From IMG/VR virus record IMGVR_UViG_3300046460_000106, positions 1-26,154 of that record: DNA of 26,154 nucleotides. One strand, 5' to 3'. Positions within the stretch are counted from its first letter, which is position 1, and every line of letters begins with the position of its first letter. The notes below the pieces were generated by a model. It did not search any database. It worked only from the letters and a program-made list of their open reading frames with translations, and had not been told where the DNA came from. This DNA is from a virus. Both the position numbers and the translations under genes were made by a program. This document shows, one piece after another, positions 20,581 through 26,154 of this stretch.

Positions 20581-20759
20581 TTTAATTTCCTTACTGGGAG
20601 GCTATGGTGGATTGCTGGTGAGGGTATCGCTGTTCTGCGCATAGGTTAAGCGTTTGATGCGCAAAATTTTGATTGTTCCTGCCGCCTTGAGCGGTTTTTT
20701 TTGTTCCTGAAATTTGATGGCCCGCCAACCGGGGGCTTTCTTGCGCCTGGAGAAAGGTG
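20581..20759. other. Non-coding stretch between small minus gene and lysis genes
   Basis: No credible gene is seen, and in particular no short holin with membrane helices. The stretch holds the palindrome CAAAATTTTG (20662-20671), a terminator-like hairpin (next entry) and a weaker GC-rich repeat around 20720-20745. The divergent promoters for the small gene and the lysis genes should be here, but no convincing -35/-10 pair could be picked by eye. Confidence 0.5.
20682..20702 (+). terminator. Terminator-like hairpin ahead of lysis genes
   Basis: CCGC (20682-20685), loop CTTGA, GCGG (20691-20694), then eight T. The stem is only four base pairs plus a possible G-T pair, but the T-run is good. 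It lies 58 bases before the endolysin start, so it could attenuate read-through into lysis genes. Confidence 0.5.
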
Positions 20760-21185
20760 ATGACTGATAATGAAAAGGCCCGCGACATTCTCGCTCGTAC
20801 GCTGTGGGGCGAGGCTCGGGGCGAGGGGCTGGCCGGCCAGATAGCTGTAGCTTGGACAATCCGAAACCGCGTCGATGATGGCAGGGCCAGGTCCTGGTGG
20901 GGGGAGGGCTACGCTGGTGTGTGTCAGAAGCCATACCAATTCAGCTGCTGGAATAGGAATGACCCCAACTTCGCTTATCTGAGTGGAGCGAAGGCAATCC
21001 CGCTCCGCGAGTTTGCTCAAGCGCAGATTGCCGCTGAGCAGGTGATGTCCGGCAAGGTTCCGGATCCTACTGGCGGCGCCACGCACTATTACGCGACCGT
21101 CATGCCGAAGGCACCGGCCTGGACTGTGGGCGCAAAACGGACGCTGAAGTTAGGGCGCCACGTATTCTTCAAGGACGTTCCATGA
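20760..21185 (+). CDS. Endolysin, SleB-type cell-wall hydrolase
   Basis: 141 residues from ATG 20760, seven bases after GGAG (20749-20752); a GTG one codon earlier would put the ribosome site too near. Hydrolase_2 (SleB) family features: ILARTLWGEARGEG with likely catalytic Glu18, AVAWTIRNRVDD, the QFSCWNRNDPN motif around residue 60, and GGATHYYA near residue 105. These enzymes are lytic transglycosylase-like muramidases that cut peptidoglycan. There is no signal peptide, so export needs a holin, but none is found next to it. Its stop overlaps the Rz start. Confidence 0.85.
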   Translation: MTDNEKARDILARTLWGEARGEGLAGQIAVAWTIRNRVDDGRARSWWGEGYAGVCQKPYQFSCWNRNDPNFAYLSGAKAIPLREFAQAQIAAEQVMSGKVPDPTGGATHYYATVMPKAPAWTVGAKRTLKLGRHVFFKDVP

Positions 21186-21697
21186 CTCCCGATACATTGA
21201 AGGCGGCACTAGTCGGTGTGTTGGCGCTATTGCTGATTACCGCTGGCGGTGTGTGGAAGGTCCAGAACTGGCGCTTCGGTATGCAACTGGCCGAGCAGGC
21301 CGGTTTGCATAAGGACGATTTGGCCACCATAAGCAACGCGGCCGCTGCACAAGTGCGCGCCGATCAGGACAAGAGAATCGCGTTGGAGCAGCGCTTGTCG
21401 GCCAGCGACCAAACCCACCACAAGGCTTTGACCAATGCACAAAAAGACCAAGCTCGCCTGCGCGATCGCCTTGCCACTTCTGATTTGCGGCTGTCAGTCT
21501 TTCTTGACGCCGCCGGGTCAGGCGGTGGCTGCTCAATGCCAGCCGGTACCAGCGCCGCCGGCATGGTTCATGGAGGAACACGAGGACAACTTGACCCAGC
21601 GCATGCTCAACGAATTATCGCCATCACCGATGACGGCGATCGTGGATTGATTGCGCTCAAGGCTTGCCAAGCCTATGTGCGTGAAATTCGCCAATGA
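21182..21697 (+). CDS. Inner-membrane spanin (Rz-like)
   Basis: 171 residues, ATGA overlap with the endolysin. The N-terminus has one membrane helix (LKAALVGVLALLLITAGGVW, residues about 5-24) and is followed by a periplasmic charged helix (residues 40-105, rich in Gln, Ala, Asp, Arg), the i-spanin topology. A Gly/Ser/Cys loop (AAGSGGGCSMPAG) and a short C-terminal helical domain follow. With the nested Rz1 lipoprotein it would span the periplasm and fuse inner and outer membranes in the last lysis step. Confidence 0.82.
   Translation: MTPDTLKAALVGVLALLLITAGGVWKVQNWRFGMQLAEQAGLHKDDLATISNAAAAQVRADQDKRIALEQRLSASDQTHHKALTNAQKDQARLRDRLATSDLRLSVFLDAAGSGGGCSMPAGTSAAGMVHGGTRGQLDPAHAQRIIAITDDGDRGLIALKACQAYVREIRQ
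21435..21650 (+). CDS. Outer-membrane spanin lipoprotein (Rz1-like), nested in Rz
   Basis: 71 residues wholly inside the Rz-like gene in another frame. Signal: MHKKTKLACAIALPLLICGC with a lipobox ending ICGC, acylated at Cys20, cut by signal peptidase II. The mature part is short and has a Pro-rich stretch (PVPAPPAWF), both hallmarks of Rz1. A nested Rz/Rz1 arrangement like lambda's is evidence that both are true genes. Confidence 0.85.
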   Translation: MHKKTKLACAIALPLLICGCQSFLTPPGQAVAAQCQPVPAPPAWFMEEHEDNLTQRMLNELSPSPMTAIVD

Positions 21698-21797: not shown

Positions 21798-22568
21798 TTG
21801 GAAAAGCTGATGCGCAGGCTAATGGAATTAAAGGTACTAAGTGAAAATCTCAGTTCTCGGCTGTGCGAGAGTCATGAAGTGATACATAACTTTATGCCTA
21901 TAAGCGGGCTAAACATGGCTCACAACCATATTGTTTATGCTTATGAGGTGGCGAGTTACTATAGGTCCGTTTTGCCAATGCCTTCGCGGGGGAGTTTGGA
22001 GGACTTCATGCGAGACGAGCCAGAGTCAACTGAACGCATTAATGTAATGTTAAATTCCTGTTATATATCCATTTTATCTTCTTTAGAGTCGTGCGCGCGT
22101 AAAGCGATTCAAACGGCTGTGCACTTATATGGTCATGTTGGAAATACAATACATCTCAATAATATTATGCAGAGAAGTCGGAAGCTTGGGTGGATAAGCG
22201 ATTCTGATGAGTTGATGTGGTTGAACCTTGTTAAAATTCGAAACTATATGGTGCACAATAATGGTGAGGGGCAAAGAAATGAGTGGTTCGCATTGCCTAG
22301 CGGGTTGATTTGGGAAACTCGCATCGGACTGCAGTCCCAAGTAACACTAAGGCACGTTCCCGAAAGCTTGAAGTGGATTTTGTTAGCTTATGCGAACTGG
22401 TGTGATGAGTTCATGAAACGATGGAACGCGGCGTTCGACTATAGCCCAAAATGGAATAAGCCTTATTCCTATCACTTGAGTGCTACTCGGGTAATTCCTC
22501 AGATGGGTGGGGATACATGGGCGGGTTATGGAGCCTGGTCGTGGCGCGAGCAGCCTCCAAACAGGTGA
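21798..22568 (+). CDS. HEPN-like candidate RNase, accessory (moron) gene
   Basis: 256 residues from TTG 21798, chosen because GGGAGG ends seven bases upstream; ATG 21810 is the alternative. The gene is clearly AT-richer than the phage genes around it (runs such as TTATATATCC), and has its own promoter-like sequence, both signs of a late-acquired gene. The protein is mostly helical. At residues 148-154 it has RNYMVHN following LNLVKI, a match to the RNxxxH motif by which HEPN RNases and toxins cleave RNA. A preceding helix (SILSSLESCARKAIQTAV) fits a four-helix HEPN bundle. Lysogen-encoded HEPN proteins often cause abortive infection, so defence against other phages is a likely role. No partner gene is seen. 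Confidence 0.55.
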   Translation: MEKLMRRLMELKVLSENLSSRLCESHEVIHNFMPISGLNMAHNHIVYAYEVASYYRSVLPMPSRGSLEDFMRDEPESTERINVMLNSCYISILSSLESCARKAIQTAVHLYGHVGNTIHLNNIMQRSRKLGWISDSDELMWLNLVKIRNYMVHNNGEGQRNEWFALPSGLIWETRIGLQSQVTLRHVPESLKWILLAYANWCDEFMKRWNAAFDYSPKWNKPYSYHLSATRVIPQMGGDTWAGYGAWSWREQPPNR

Positions 22569-22577
22569 GGCAGTTAC

Positions 22578-23273
22578 TTAGAACAAGCCGTCTTCCTCGG
22601 CTGGCTTGATCAAATCAGGCCCCTGATTGCGCACATTTCCAATCGCGCGGTCAACCTTGAACCACTCGAACGCCTCAGTTGGCTCGCCCTGGTGCATCAC
22701 CATCACTTCGGCGCGCTCCTTTGGCGTGGCCGGGTCGAGCCATTCGCGGGCCAGTTCTGGCGATAGCGTCACAGGGCGCCGGTCGTGGATATCGACCATC
22801 CCACCGGCGCTGTCGGCGGTGATTATCACGAAGCCGTCGTGCTCGCTGGGCCCGTGCTCGGCGTGTGGATATTGGCCGATCAAAGCGCACAGGATTGGCG
22901 CCCGGTCCCGCCGGCGGATGAGGTAGGGCTGCTTCTTCGGTCCGCCTTCATCCACCCATTCAAACCAGTTGTTGATTGCGATGATTGCCCGGTGCGGCCA
23001 GATGGCACGGAAGAACGGCCCGTGGGCGACTTTCTCCACCCTGGCATTGATCGGTGCTGCGCGGTCCTTGGCCCAGTGCGGGCGCCATCCCCAGCGCACC
23101 ATGTCGGCGTGCAGATATTCTCCTTCCTGGTGGAAGATGGCGAGCTGGGTTGTAGGGGCAGCGTTGTACCGCTCGAACGGTTGGTCACCGACGCTGTTTA
23201 CCAGAGGGTTTGGCATGCTGAGTGCCGCCACGAAATCGTGGATGCCATCGTATTGAGAAAGTCGTCCGCACAT
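22578..23273 (-). CDS. yedK: SRAP-domain abasic-site DNA-protein crosslink protein (YedK/HMCES-like)
   Basis: 231 residues starting MCGRLSQY. All key SRAP features are present: Cys2 at the mature N-terminus, which forms a thiazolidine link to abasic sites in single-stranded DNA, RYNAAPT (Asn37), the active Glu105 in NNWFEWVD and His163 in DIHDRRP, with NARVEK about residue 76-81. The family shields abasic sites at replication forks. It overlaps no neighbour; the coiled-coil gene ends two bases upstream of its start, with AGAGGGG as ribosome site, so the two form an operon. A LexA box lies at the head of this operon. A longer frame to 23675 is rejected, as it runs through the neighbouring gene. 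Confidence 0.88.
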   Translation of the reverse strand: MCGRLSQYDGIHDFVAALSMPNPLVNSVGDQPFERYNAAPTTQLAIFHQEGEYLHADMVRWGWRPHWAKDRAAPINARVEKVAHGPFFRAIWPHRAIIAINNWFEWVDEGGPKKQPYLIRRRDRAPILCALIGQYPHAEHGPSEHDGFVIITADSAGGMVDIHDRRPVTLSPELAREWLDPATPKERAEVMVMHQGEPTEAFEWFKVDRAIGNVRNQGPDLIKPAEEDGLF

Positions 23274-23275
23274 GT

Positions 23276-23596
23276 TCAGCCCCTCTGATAGCCTGCCTGC
23301 AGCTCGCGAATGATCCTTTCTTTTTGATCCAGGACCAGTGTCAGGCTTCGGATTTTGAAAAGCTGGTCGGTGGTTTCCGCCTCCAGGTTCGCCATCCATG
23401 CCAGCTTCTTTTGGAGTTCGATCGATAGCTGGTCGTTCATTTCCACCAGGGTGGAAATATTTTCCTTTGCCGCCTGCAGCTGACGCTTTAGATCCTGGAC
23501 ATCTTCCTCGAGCATGCTTGCGTAATGCTTGACGGTTTCCAGCCTGGTCGGGCTGCCGAGCCAATCGCTGGTGTCTTCGATTTCGTAGGGGTCCAC
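23276..23596 (-). CDS. Coiled-coil protein, SOS operon partner of SRAP gene
   Basis: 106 residues from GTG 23596, with AAGG eight to ten bases upstream. The sequence is nearly one continuous coiled coil (LEEDVQDLKRQLQAAKENIS, then LEAETTDQLFKIRSLTLVL, then RIIRELQAGY), with heptad-like Leu/Ile positions, preceded by an acidic N-terminus (EIEDTSDWLGSP). No membrane segment. No family was recognised; similar small coiled-coil proteins occur beside SRAP genes in Pseudomonas prophages. It ends two bases before the SRAP start. Its start lies 16 bases from a LexA box, so it should be SOS-induced. Confidence 0.7.
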   Translation of the reverse strand: MDPYEIEDTSDWLGSPTRLETVKHYASMLEEDVQDLKRQLQAAKENISTLVEMNDQLSIELQKKLAWMANLEAETTDQLFKIRSLTLVLDQKERIIRELQAGYQRG

Positions 23597-23612
23597 GGTG
23601 ATGCCTTACAGC

Positions 23613-23632
23613 TACTGTTTGGATATACAGTA
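23613..23632 (-). promoter_or_regulatory. LexA (SOS) box
   Basis: TACTGT, eight bases, ACAGTA: a perfect 6+6 inverted repeat holding CTGT(N8)ACAG, the consensus of gammaproteobacterial LexA boxes. It lies 16 bases before the GTG of the coiled-coil/SRAP operon and away from any other gene start. LexA would repress the operon until DNA damage. Confidence 0.85.
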
Positions 23633-23681
23633 AACGAGCCCGGGCGCGATGGCGAATGGCGGCGACGGAATGCAAAGCTGA

Positions 23682-23891
23682 TCACTCTGGCGTCATCAGC
23701 ACCGCGAGCGTCAGCTTGATGAACTCTTCATTTTTATCGATGGTGTCCAAGGCGCCGCGGACGTTATCGGCGACGTCCGCCGCGCCGCGTTGCTCAACCC
23801 AGTTCGAAAGCTCCATGATGGCGGCCTCCAGGGCGAGCTGGTTTTCATTGATCTTGAACAGCAGGGAAGGGAGCAGGTCTGAGTTGGGCAT
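23682..23891 (-). CDS. 69-residue helical protein, unknown
   Basis: Starts at ATG 23891 with GAGG seven bases upstream (minus strand); the longer frame to 24041 lacks a ribosome site and starts near the attachment region. Residues read PNSDLLPSLLFKINENQLALEAAIMELSNWVEQRG, then helix with AADVADNVRGALDTIDKNEEFIKLTLAVL. The pattern is all-helical, without motifs or signal. Proteins like this are common at this end of Pseudomonas prophages. It lies upstream of the LexA box but ends 50 bases before it, so it has its own promoter. Confidence 0.65.
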   Translation of the reverse strand: MPNSDLLPSLLFKINENQLALEAAIMELSNWVEQRGAADVADNVRGALDTIDKNEEFIKLTLAVLMTPE

Positions 23892-24110
23892 CGCGATTCC
23901 TCTATAGATGAGGGAAAGCGTAGTAGCCGCGGTCAGGTTAGGCATGGATGTGTTCGATCGGCAGAACGCCGGGATGCGGGGACTTTCTCGTCGAAAGCCT
24001 GTAGGGACTTTTGCGGGGAAACGTGAATCACGGTTAAGCACGGTTCGGCATCGATTGCAGTGGGCGCCGTTCCAAAGGGCTGATCTGTAAAGCTTTTTAG
24101 CGCCCCTGCA
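23892..24110. other. Attachment-proximal non-coding region
   Basis: No gene is seen. The stretch holds two short direct repeats, GGGACTTT at 23979-23986 and 24004-24011, and CACGGTT at 24029-24035 and 24039-24045 (10-base step). A small hairpin CTTTC-TCGTC-GAAAG begins at 23983. The repeats lie 65-180 bases from the attachment site, the distance at which arm-type integrase or Xis binding sites of lambda-like integrases usually lie. Confidence 0.5.
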
Positions 24111-24365: not shown

Positions 24366-25169
24366 TCAGCTTTTGCTGTGGGAGTAGCTGATGGCGACTA
24401 CTTGCCTCGCTCGCTCTGAAAGACCTCCTGAGCGTTGCAATGCAATTGATTTGTCGATTTTTTTCTCAAGTTCCGGATAAAAATCCATTACGAGGAGACG
24501 TAACCGATCTAGAAGTTTAGGATCATTTTTAAGCTGGTCTCGTAAGTGGACTGCGTAACCGTAGTTGGAAGTTAAGGCATCGTCGGGCGCAAATGCCCGC
24601 ATCCACTTCAGCATGATATCTGCGTCCCCTCCGAAATTTATCAGCAGGTCGATGTAGCGAATCAGCTGGGCCGAAGCGTTATAAAGTGTATATCTGTTGA
24701 TGTCTAAGATGGACGTTTGATGTTCGACTGCGATCTTCTTGATGTCCTTCCATCCCTCACTGAGCTGGAAGGATCCTTTCATACTTACAGAGATTGTTTT
24801 GGCGGTGGGTTTACGTGGGGTCAAATGATCCTGTTCGACAGGTAGCGCCCGAATGGCTGCGGTAGTGACATTTACGTCGATCAGTAGCACGGGAATTAAC
24901 GAAACAGACAAATAACGCGCGGTCGTGGACTTCAGGCGGATTTTACCTCTATCAGTCCTGGTTCCTTTGATCTGCAATCGTATAAGTCCGCCGGTCACTG
25001 AGCCTCGCTTCTTGACAATCTCAATTTCCGCGTCCAGACCGTAGTCTTTTGGTAAGTCTCTATAAATCCAGCCTTTTTTTGCAACGGCTTTTTTTACTAA
25101 AGCGGTTGCTTGATCGTCAACTACATGGGACTTCGTTCTCATAGGAAGATTTTCTGTCATTAGGTCCAT
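24366..25169 (-). CDS. DUF4365 nuclease-like protein, candidate defence gene
   Basis: 267 residues. The N-terminal 100 residues match DUF4365: DDQATALVKKAVAKKGWIYRDLPKDYGLDAEIEIV, then LIRLQIKGT. Acidic residues (Asp46, Glu48/50) and the Gln66-x-Lys68 motif fit a PD-(D/E)xK nuclease core, found in many defence proteins. The rest (ISVSMKGSFQLSEGWKDIKKI, then helical to the end) is of unknown role. Three possible starts (25169, 25160, 25142) are present, none with a strong ribosome site; the first is listed. It is AT-richer than the prophage. It lies divergently from a DEAH helicase across 231 bases, so the two may form one system. Confidence 0.7.
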   Translation of the reverse strand: MDLMTENLPMRTKSHVVDDQATALVKKAVAKKGWIYRDLPKDYGLDAEIEIVKKRGSVTGGLIRLQIKGTRTDRGKIRLKSTTARYLSVSLIPVLLIDVNVTTAAIRALPVEQDHLTPRKPTAKTISVSMKGSFQLSEGWKDIKKIAVEHQTSILDINRYTLYNASAQLIRYIDLLINFGGDADIMLKWMRAFAPDDALTSNYGYAVHLRDQLKNDPKLLDRLRLLVMDFYPELEKKIDKSIALQRSGGLSERARQVVAISYSHSKS

Positions 25170-25400
25170 CTAACTCTGTCTCTTGCGCTTGTTGGAGGAG
25201 GGACATTCAATGCCGTTTTATTTTTGATCACTGGATAAAATGACGCATGTTTATTAGCTAACTACAAATGATCTCTGCAGGCCGGTGGTGATCAGTCGTC
25301 GGTGCTGAATTCACTTGCCCCGCAACCCAACCACACCCTTACCACTTGCACAAAAACGGCACCAGAGTACGCTTCAATCGGATCCAAAGGAGGGATTGCG
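25170..25400. other. Divergent intergenic region
   Basis: 231 bases between the two divergent genes. AT-rich part at about 25215-25265 (TTTTATTTTTGATC, GATAAAAT, TTAGCTAA) is the likely location of promoters, but no pair could be assigned with confidence. AAGGAGG at 25386-25392 serves the helicase gene. Confidence 0.5.
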
Positions 25401-26154
25401 GTGCCGAATTTTTTTGTTGAGCAAGCGGGGACGCTGAATCTGTTTCAACAGCAGCGTACTCCCAATCATGGATTCAGACCTGGACAGTTGGGTGCGTTGC
25501 ACGCAGTTTTGGCGCATTTTTCCGTGCAGGACGACCCTGCCATCGTCTGTTTGCCCACTGGCTATGGAAAGACCTCCTTGATGATGGCGCTTCCCATGCT
25601 GCTGGGGCCGGCGCGTGTACTGATAGTGGAACCTTCAAGCGCCTTGAGAAAACAGGTGCATTCACATATTTCGGTCATGTCCACACTCCGCCGGATTGGT
25701 GCGCTAGCTGAAGATTGTCCGCTTCCCGACGTGCACCTGCATATCGGCCGTCCTCAATCCCTTGAAGAATGGCAATTGCTTCAAGCCTACGACGTCGTCG
25801 TTTCGACACCTTCGAGCTCATCACCCGACCTAGCCCCTGGTGCGCCGTCGGATCTCTTCGATCTTGTGATCTTCGATGAAGCCCATCATGCTCCGGCCGA
25901 TTCCTGGATGGCCTACGTAGAACACTTCACAAAAGCTCGGTTCTTGTTTCTCACGGCAACGCCCTTTCGACGAGATGGGCGCGTCATTCCAGGGAAGCTC
26001 GTTTATCGATATCCGGTAATGCGGGCTGTCGATGAGGGGGCCTTTGAGCCAATTAACTTCTGTGCGGCACCGATCGAGGACGAACTCGATGATGAACACG
26101 TTGATCAAGCCATAGCTCGGGCGGCTGTTCAGCAGCTTAACGAGGACAGGGAAA
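25401..26154 (+). CDS. SF2 DEAD/DEAH-box helicase, N-terminal part (cut by window edge)
   Basis: 251 codons are visible from GTG 25401, with AAGGAGG seven or eight bases upstream; the gene continues beyond the window. Motifs: FRPGQ (Q-like motif, about 25-29), Walker A PTGYGKTS (52-59), Ia region VLIVEPSSALRKQ, DEAHH (159-163), and LTATPFRRDG (motif III, about 184-193). This order is that of SF2 helicases seen in restriction and defence systems. The second RecA lobe and any extra domains are outside. With the DUF4365-like nuclease beside it, a nuclease-helicase defence locus is plausible; the exact family is not known. Confidence 0.85.
   Translation, partial: MPNFFVEQAGTLNLFQQQRTPNHGFRPGQLGALHAVLAHFSVQDDPAIVCLPTGYGKTSLMMALPMLLGPARVLIVEPSSALRKQVHSHISVMSTLRRIGALAEDCPLPDVHLHIGRPQSLEEWQLLQAYDVVVSTPSSSSPDLAPGAPSDLFDLVIFDEAHHAPADSWMAYVEHFTKARFLFLTATPFRRDGRVIPGKLVYRYPVMRAVDEGAFEPINFCAAPIEDELDDEHVDQAIARAAVQQLNEDRE

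Follow-up and report, generated by a model that had tools for sequence, protein, structure and literature searches.

A predicted LexA-controlled accessory operon with a coiled-coil leader and an SRAP gene in temperate phages of Pseudomonas

The SRAP protein YedK crosslinks abasic sites in single-stranded DNA (PMC9436759), and a gene of the same family lying behind an apparent host LexA operator in a viral genome raises two questions: whether such a phage is equipped to switch on damage protection for itself, and what the coiled-coil protein encoded between the operator and the SRAP gene has to do with it. The window analyzed here is the whole of a virus record of 26,154 bases that carries head, tail-sheath, tape-measure, baseplate, tail-fiber, and terminase genes together with a lysis cassette. 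Judged by this gene content the window phage is a contractile-tailed temperate phage, and its relatives come from Pseudomonas. The module of operator, coiled-coil gene (hereafter coil), and SRAP gene sits past the lysis genes and on the opposite strand, convergent with a cassette that includes an endolysin gene (20757-21185) and a gene for an Rz-like spanin (21182-21697, plus strand), the neighbor that the module abuts in homologues. The first-pass annotation had placed this locus in a prophage, a setting borne out by the structural, terminase, and lysis genes and by homologous modules that adjoin tRNA or tmRNA genes.

The predicted operator and the genes it precedes

The sequence TACTGTTTGGATATACAGTA at 23613-23632 matches TACTGT-N8-ACAGTA at 12 of 12 positions, and no other site in the window comes within two mismatches of the operator, 0.24 such sites being expected; the perfect LexA box claimed in the first-pass annotation is thus present. 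Read on the minus strand as 5'-TACTGTATATCCAAACAGTA-3', this predicted operator ends 16 nt before the GTG start codon of the coil gene, and its 12/12 box conforms to the Pseudomonas LexA consensus, published for P. aeruginosa as CTG-TATAA-ATATA-CAG (PMC13114513). The looser pattern CTGT-N8-ACAG, when one mismatch is allowed, shows no enrichment there, 7 sites being found and 8.1 expected. Motif statistics within a single window are a poor judge of chance, and conservation among homologues was therefore tested instead, as described below. Directly before the box, a putative promoter block at 23633-23667 (minus strand) reads CGTCGC ... TTCGCC ... GCTCGT, and homologues keep it as CTCGTCGC-N-CCTCGC ... 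GCCTCGAT. No sigma-70 promoter was found by consensus scan. An open reading frame directly upstream of the operator (23682-24041, minus strand) matches PHROG 12397, of unknown function, and is also found upstream of the coil gene in some relatives.

Both genes behind the operator are on the minus strand. The coil gene (23276-23596, GTG start) encodes 106 residues and the SRAP gene (22578-23273) encodes 231, nearly the length of YedK. The SRAP ATG starts 2 nt after the coil stop codon, a gap that makes an operon likely. Purifying selection acts on both genes, with a median dN/dS of 0.17 for the coil and 0.055 for SRAP. The SRAP protein belongs to the YedK/HMCES family (PF02586, PHROG 1599), its match to the Pfam model being full-length (positions 1-214 of 214, E=3.5e-45) and its best matches in the PDB being YedK structures (E about 5e-52). 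Residues C2, N76, E105, and H163 align with C2, N75, E105, and H160 of YedK, and the catalytic Cys2 directly follows the initiator Met, in agreement with the earlier reading of an SRAP protein with all of its active residues.

Other genes flank the module in the window. An open reading frame of 256 residues at 21798-22568 (plus strand) is convergent with the SRAP gene, their stops lying 9 nt apart, and carries R-N-Y-M-V-H, an HEPN-type Rx4H motif; nothing in Pfam, PHROGs, NCBIfam, or PADLOC matches it, and it is possibly a defense or toxin accessory gene. A DUF4365 protein encoded at 24366-25169 (minus strand) is weakly similar to the N-terminal part of a restriction-enzyme-like PADLOC model, and a ResIII/DEAD helicase frame (25302-26154, plus strand) runs past the window end.

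Persistence of the operator and exchange of the leader gene

Searches with the coil protein returned 79 loci on viral contigs and 39 more in genomes, all of the latter Pseudomonas. Among loci with available upstream DNA, 73 of the 74 viral ones and 37 of the 39 genomic ones carry a LexA box no more than 80 nt from the coil start, and the distance from box to start codon is nearly always 34 to 39 nt. The operator is therefore stronger than chance, since the box is retained at a nearly constant position in 110 of 113 homologous loci, as compared with 1 of 113 control stretches taken within genes. The two genomic loci lacking a box (L110 and L117) both look decayed. A single 31-kb contig holds two coil copies (L034 and L053), each with its own LexA box, one followed by SRAP and the other not. 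In phage VW-6S (L007) a second LexA-like box, TGCTGTATATCCATACAGCT, occurs at about 1183-1202, just upstream of the oppositely oriented gene VW6S_20.

The same question was asked from the side of SRAP, for the 74 phage SRAP loci whose upstream sequence reaches 500 nt or more, with a box sought within 1,200 nt upstream. One is found in 70 of the 74, versus 2 of 74 equivalent downstream controls. These loci have three layouts: box, coil, and SRAP (42 loci); box, a leader of 241 residues belonging to PHROG 19595, and SRAP; and SRAP with no leader, the box lying 77-79 nt ahead of it. The corresponding operon of F116 begins with gene 69, which is distantly related to the 241-residue leader. On an SRAP tree of 81 rows, whose bootstrap values are rough, the layouts need at least 15 changes and the box is present in most rows, being absent from 9 of 81, including three chromosomal ones. 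Because the layouts switch on the tree while the box persists, the SOS promoter appears to stay in place as the leader gene in front of SRAP is exchanged. The conserved block directly upstream of the box (CGTCGC / TCGC / CTCGAT) is common to the coil gene and the unrelated 241-residue leader, and is perhaps the site of a second regulator. Taken with the coil loci, these comparisons strongly support the SOS control proposed in the first-pass annotation, and the operon is very likely under LexA control.

The host presents a different picture. SRAP is encoded in all 59 Pseudomonas genomes sampled. In the chromosomal type examined, which is about 27% identical to the phage type, a LexA box precedes none of 23 loci, a set in which a few genomes are represented by two overlapping loci. 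For all the resemblance of the window protein to YedK, the E. coli protein is encoded on the chromosome, as is the universal SRAP of Pseudomonas, and of the phage type and the sampled Pseudomonas chromosomal copies it is the phage type that has the box. In a further group of Pseudomonas genomic loci (L215, L216, and L218-L225), an SRAP 42-49% identical to that of the window has a LexA box directly 77-86 nt upstream.

The association of SRAP with the SOS response was drawn from gene neighborhoods by Aravind et al. in 2013, who noted prophage copies and proposed a role for them as a sensor and lysis switch (PMC3765255). Like the operons of that study, the phage loci are SOS-linked and include prophage copies; however, the earlier operons contain imuB, dnaE2, dinB, or umuC, whereas here SRAP follows a phage-specific leader, of the coil or PHROG 19595 type, behind a conserved LexA promoter at the attachment end. 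A parallel in regulation is PP_3901 from a prophage of P. putida KT2440, which is reported to belong to the regulons of LexA1 and LexA2 and to have a promoter responsive to nalidixic acid (PMC4595014). Located by means of the published primers, this gene starts with a GTG preceded at 17 nt by a perfect LexA box, a geometry that matches the one at the coil gene, but it encodes an unrelated protein of 86 residues and is not in an SRAP operon; homology with the coil was considered and rejected, BLAST giving no match. By analogy, PP_3901 supports a LexA function for boxes of this kind rather than a common protein function. In the literature searched, which covered few subscription papers, neither LexA-controlled SRAP operons of Pseudomonas phages nor the coil family is described.

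The coiled-coil leader and the slot at the attachment end

The coil protein consists of a conserved N-terminal peptide (MDPYEIEDTSDWLGxPT) and one long helix. In the predicted structure an extended peptide of 17 residues is followed by a single helix spanning residues 18-105 (pLDDT 91), and a structure search with this model returned nothing, as expected for one helix. The invariance of EIEDTSDW is partly an artifact of the search, the peptide having been among the search patterns, and a diverged branch found otherwise keeps EDTxxWLGxPTPL only. The protein has no match in PHROGs and none above the cut-off in Pfam or NCBIfam, where weak coiled-coil similarities occur, so the description of the coil as unstudied holds for the family libraries searched. 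By these comparisons it is a new family, with more than 100 members found and a strictly conserved predicted SOS operator. A marginal match to BrxC in PADLOC was discarded, and the GenBank names of two homologues, 'minor tail protein' (L002:4642-4980) and 'defense against restriction protein A' (L007:3989-4348), are annotation noise, the proteins probably being misnamed. A conserved peptide carried on a modeled helical rod points most simply to an adaptor, and the coil is probably one.

Selection on the coil gene extends beyond its protein. Codons 7-9, GAAGACACC (23570-23578, minus strand), are conserved at synonymous positions too, with almost no synonymous change across the coil family, most of the diverged branch included. 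Such conservation in the alignments is a nucleotide-level constraint and, together with the block upstream of the box, suggests further control of the operon.

The first-pass annotation had treated coil and SRAP as a fixed pair, and the homologues do not bear this out. In 33 of the 79 viral loci and 23 of the 39 genomic ones, or 56 of 118 in all, SRAP comes next after the coil, and it also occurs with another leader or with none; because over half of the coil loci are without an adjoining SRAP, coil and SRAP are weakly linked in function. Other genes behind the coil encode acyltransferases, a C5-epimerase-like protein, a hexapeptide transferase, and a ClpP-like SDH protease, and only cargo with family matches is named here, calls based on open reading frames being confounded by antisense frames in GC-rich DNA. 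In some loci the cargo lies on the opposite strand, which makes the slot a site for accessory genes in general and not in every case a single operon. The position of the slot is also recurrent. Of 34 records, 26 have the coil no more than 8 kb from one end and an integrase no more than 3.5 kb from the opposite end, and four more have the integrase 0.4-2 kb upstream of the coil, as in a circular or permuted genome. A tRNA or tmRNA gene is found 190-540 nt from the coil in four genomic copies. Coil and integrase at opposite ends and adjacency to tRNA or tmRNA genes together place the module usually just inside the attachment site. Its own predicted LexA operator, the patchy presence of SRAP beside the coil, the alternative cargo, and the absence of a structural role in the virion are the marks of a moron.

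Proposed mechanism, alternatives, and consequences

We consider it likely that the locus is an SOS-inducible, LexA-repressed accessory (moron) operon of a Pseudomonas temperate phage whose SRAP protein would shield abasic sites. In this mechanism, which is read from sequence comparison, the operon occupies the attachment-site end of the prophage, would be transcribed toward the lysis genes, and would be kept silent by LexA bound to the operator. RecA filaments formed upon damage would cause LexA to cleave itself, allowing the coil and SRAP genes to be transcribed together without any need for the phage repressor to fall. Where single-stranded DNA has abasic sites, the SRAP protein would then capture them in a protective thiazolidine crosslink, which may protect the DNA of both host and phage against strand breaks at times of damage and replication. 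As the exchangeable first gene of an SOS promoter cassette, the coil would probably encode an adaptor, its helical rod holding a partner bound by the conserved N-terminal peptide.

The first-pass annotation had further supposed that induction by DNA damage couples lesion protection to induction of the prophage. The SOS control in that proposal is strongly supported; the coupling is conjectural. A repressor of the S24-peptidase type, which is of the RecA-cleavable kind, is encoded in 31 of 36 carrier records, the window itself being a fragment. Given its own LexA operator and the S24 repressor in most carriers, the operon should answer the SOS response in parallel to, and not through, prophage induction.

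Tum of phage 186 and its relatives are LexA-controlled antirepressors, and as temperate-phage genes run by host LexA they resemble the operon described here. An alternative account is accordingly that the operon is part of the lytic switch, with the coil acting as a LexA-controlled antirepressor or induction aid in the manner of Tum or PP_3901, and SRAP serving as a damage sensor for the phage decision. The proposal of Aravind et al. is of this kind, and a passage of PMC4595014 that cites Abella et al. has PP_3901, which is under LexA1 and LexA2 and shares the operator geometry, needed to induce other prophage genes. However, the S24-type repressors of most coil phages should need no antirepressor, and the coil, besides being no homologue of PP_3901, is a predicted single helix with no predicted DNA- or repressor-binding fold. 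We regard a role in the lytic switch as unlikely.

A second alternative, to which we give somewhat less credence still, is that the promoter mainly yields RNA antisense to the convergent lysis genes, which would delay lysis while the SOS response is on, and that the coil reading frame is secondary. In many loci without cargo the coil stop codon overlaps or abuts the convergent Rz stop, and no terminator in the correct orientation was found in the window region, both as such an arrangement would have it. Selection at the protein level is nonetheless clear in the dN/dS of both genes, and cargo of up to about 1.7 kb often separates the promoter from the lysis genes. Least probable of all is that SRAP is an anti-defense factor hiding the abasic sites that host immunity of the glycosylase type makes in phage DNA, with LexA control incidental: SRAP chemistry would shield such sites and a DNA-glycosylase phage defense exists (PMC11078745), but deletion of yedK left that immunity unaffected (PMC11078745), SRAP matches no defense family in PADLOC, and retention of the operator through leader exchanges argues that SOS timing is what was selected.

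The SOS-inducible accessory operon is thus the reading we favor, and it leaves room for a bolder and much more tentative view of the coil. The family could be a new class of phage-encoded SOS effector, in which a short, conserved acidic peptide carried on a helical rod takes hold of some host component of SOS or replication when lysogens are damaged. The LexA promoter at the attachment end could then be a dedicated slot that Pseudomonas phages fill with exchangeable cargo expressed at times of damage, SRAP being the commonest.

The comparative evidence indicates that phage SRAP genes in Pseudomonas are kept under host LexA and that the host's own SRAP is not. Dormant Pseudomonas viruses, on the basis of their conserved operators, probably turn on protection against damage by themselves, and the SRAP gene of the host appears not to be switched in this way. 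The purpose of a prophage SRAP thereby becomes directly testable, and a recurring slot for accessory genes is defined next to the attachment site. If this account is true, the response of lysogens to DNA-damaging antibiotics would be written in part by their prophages.
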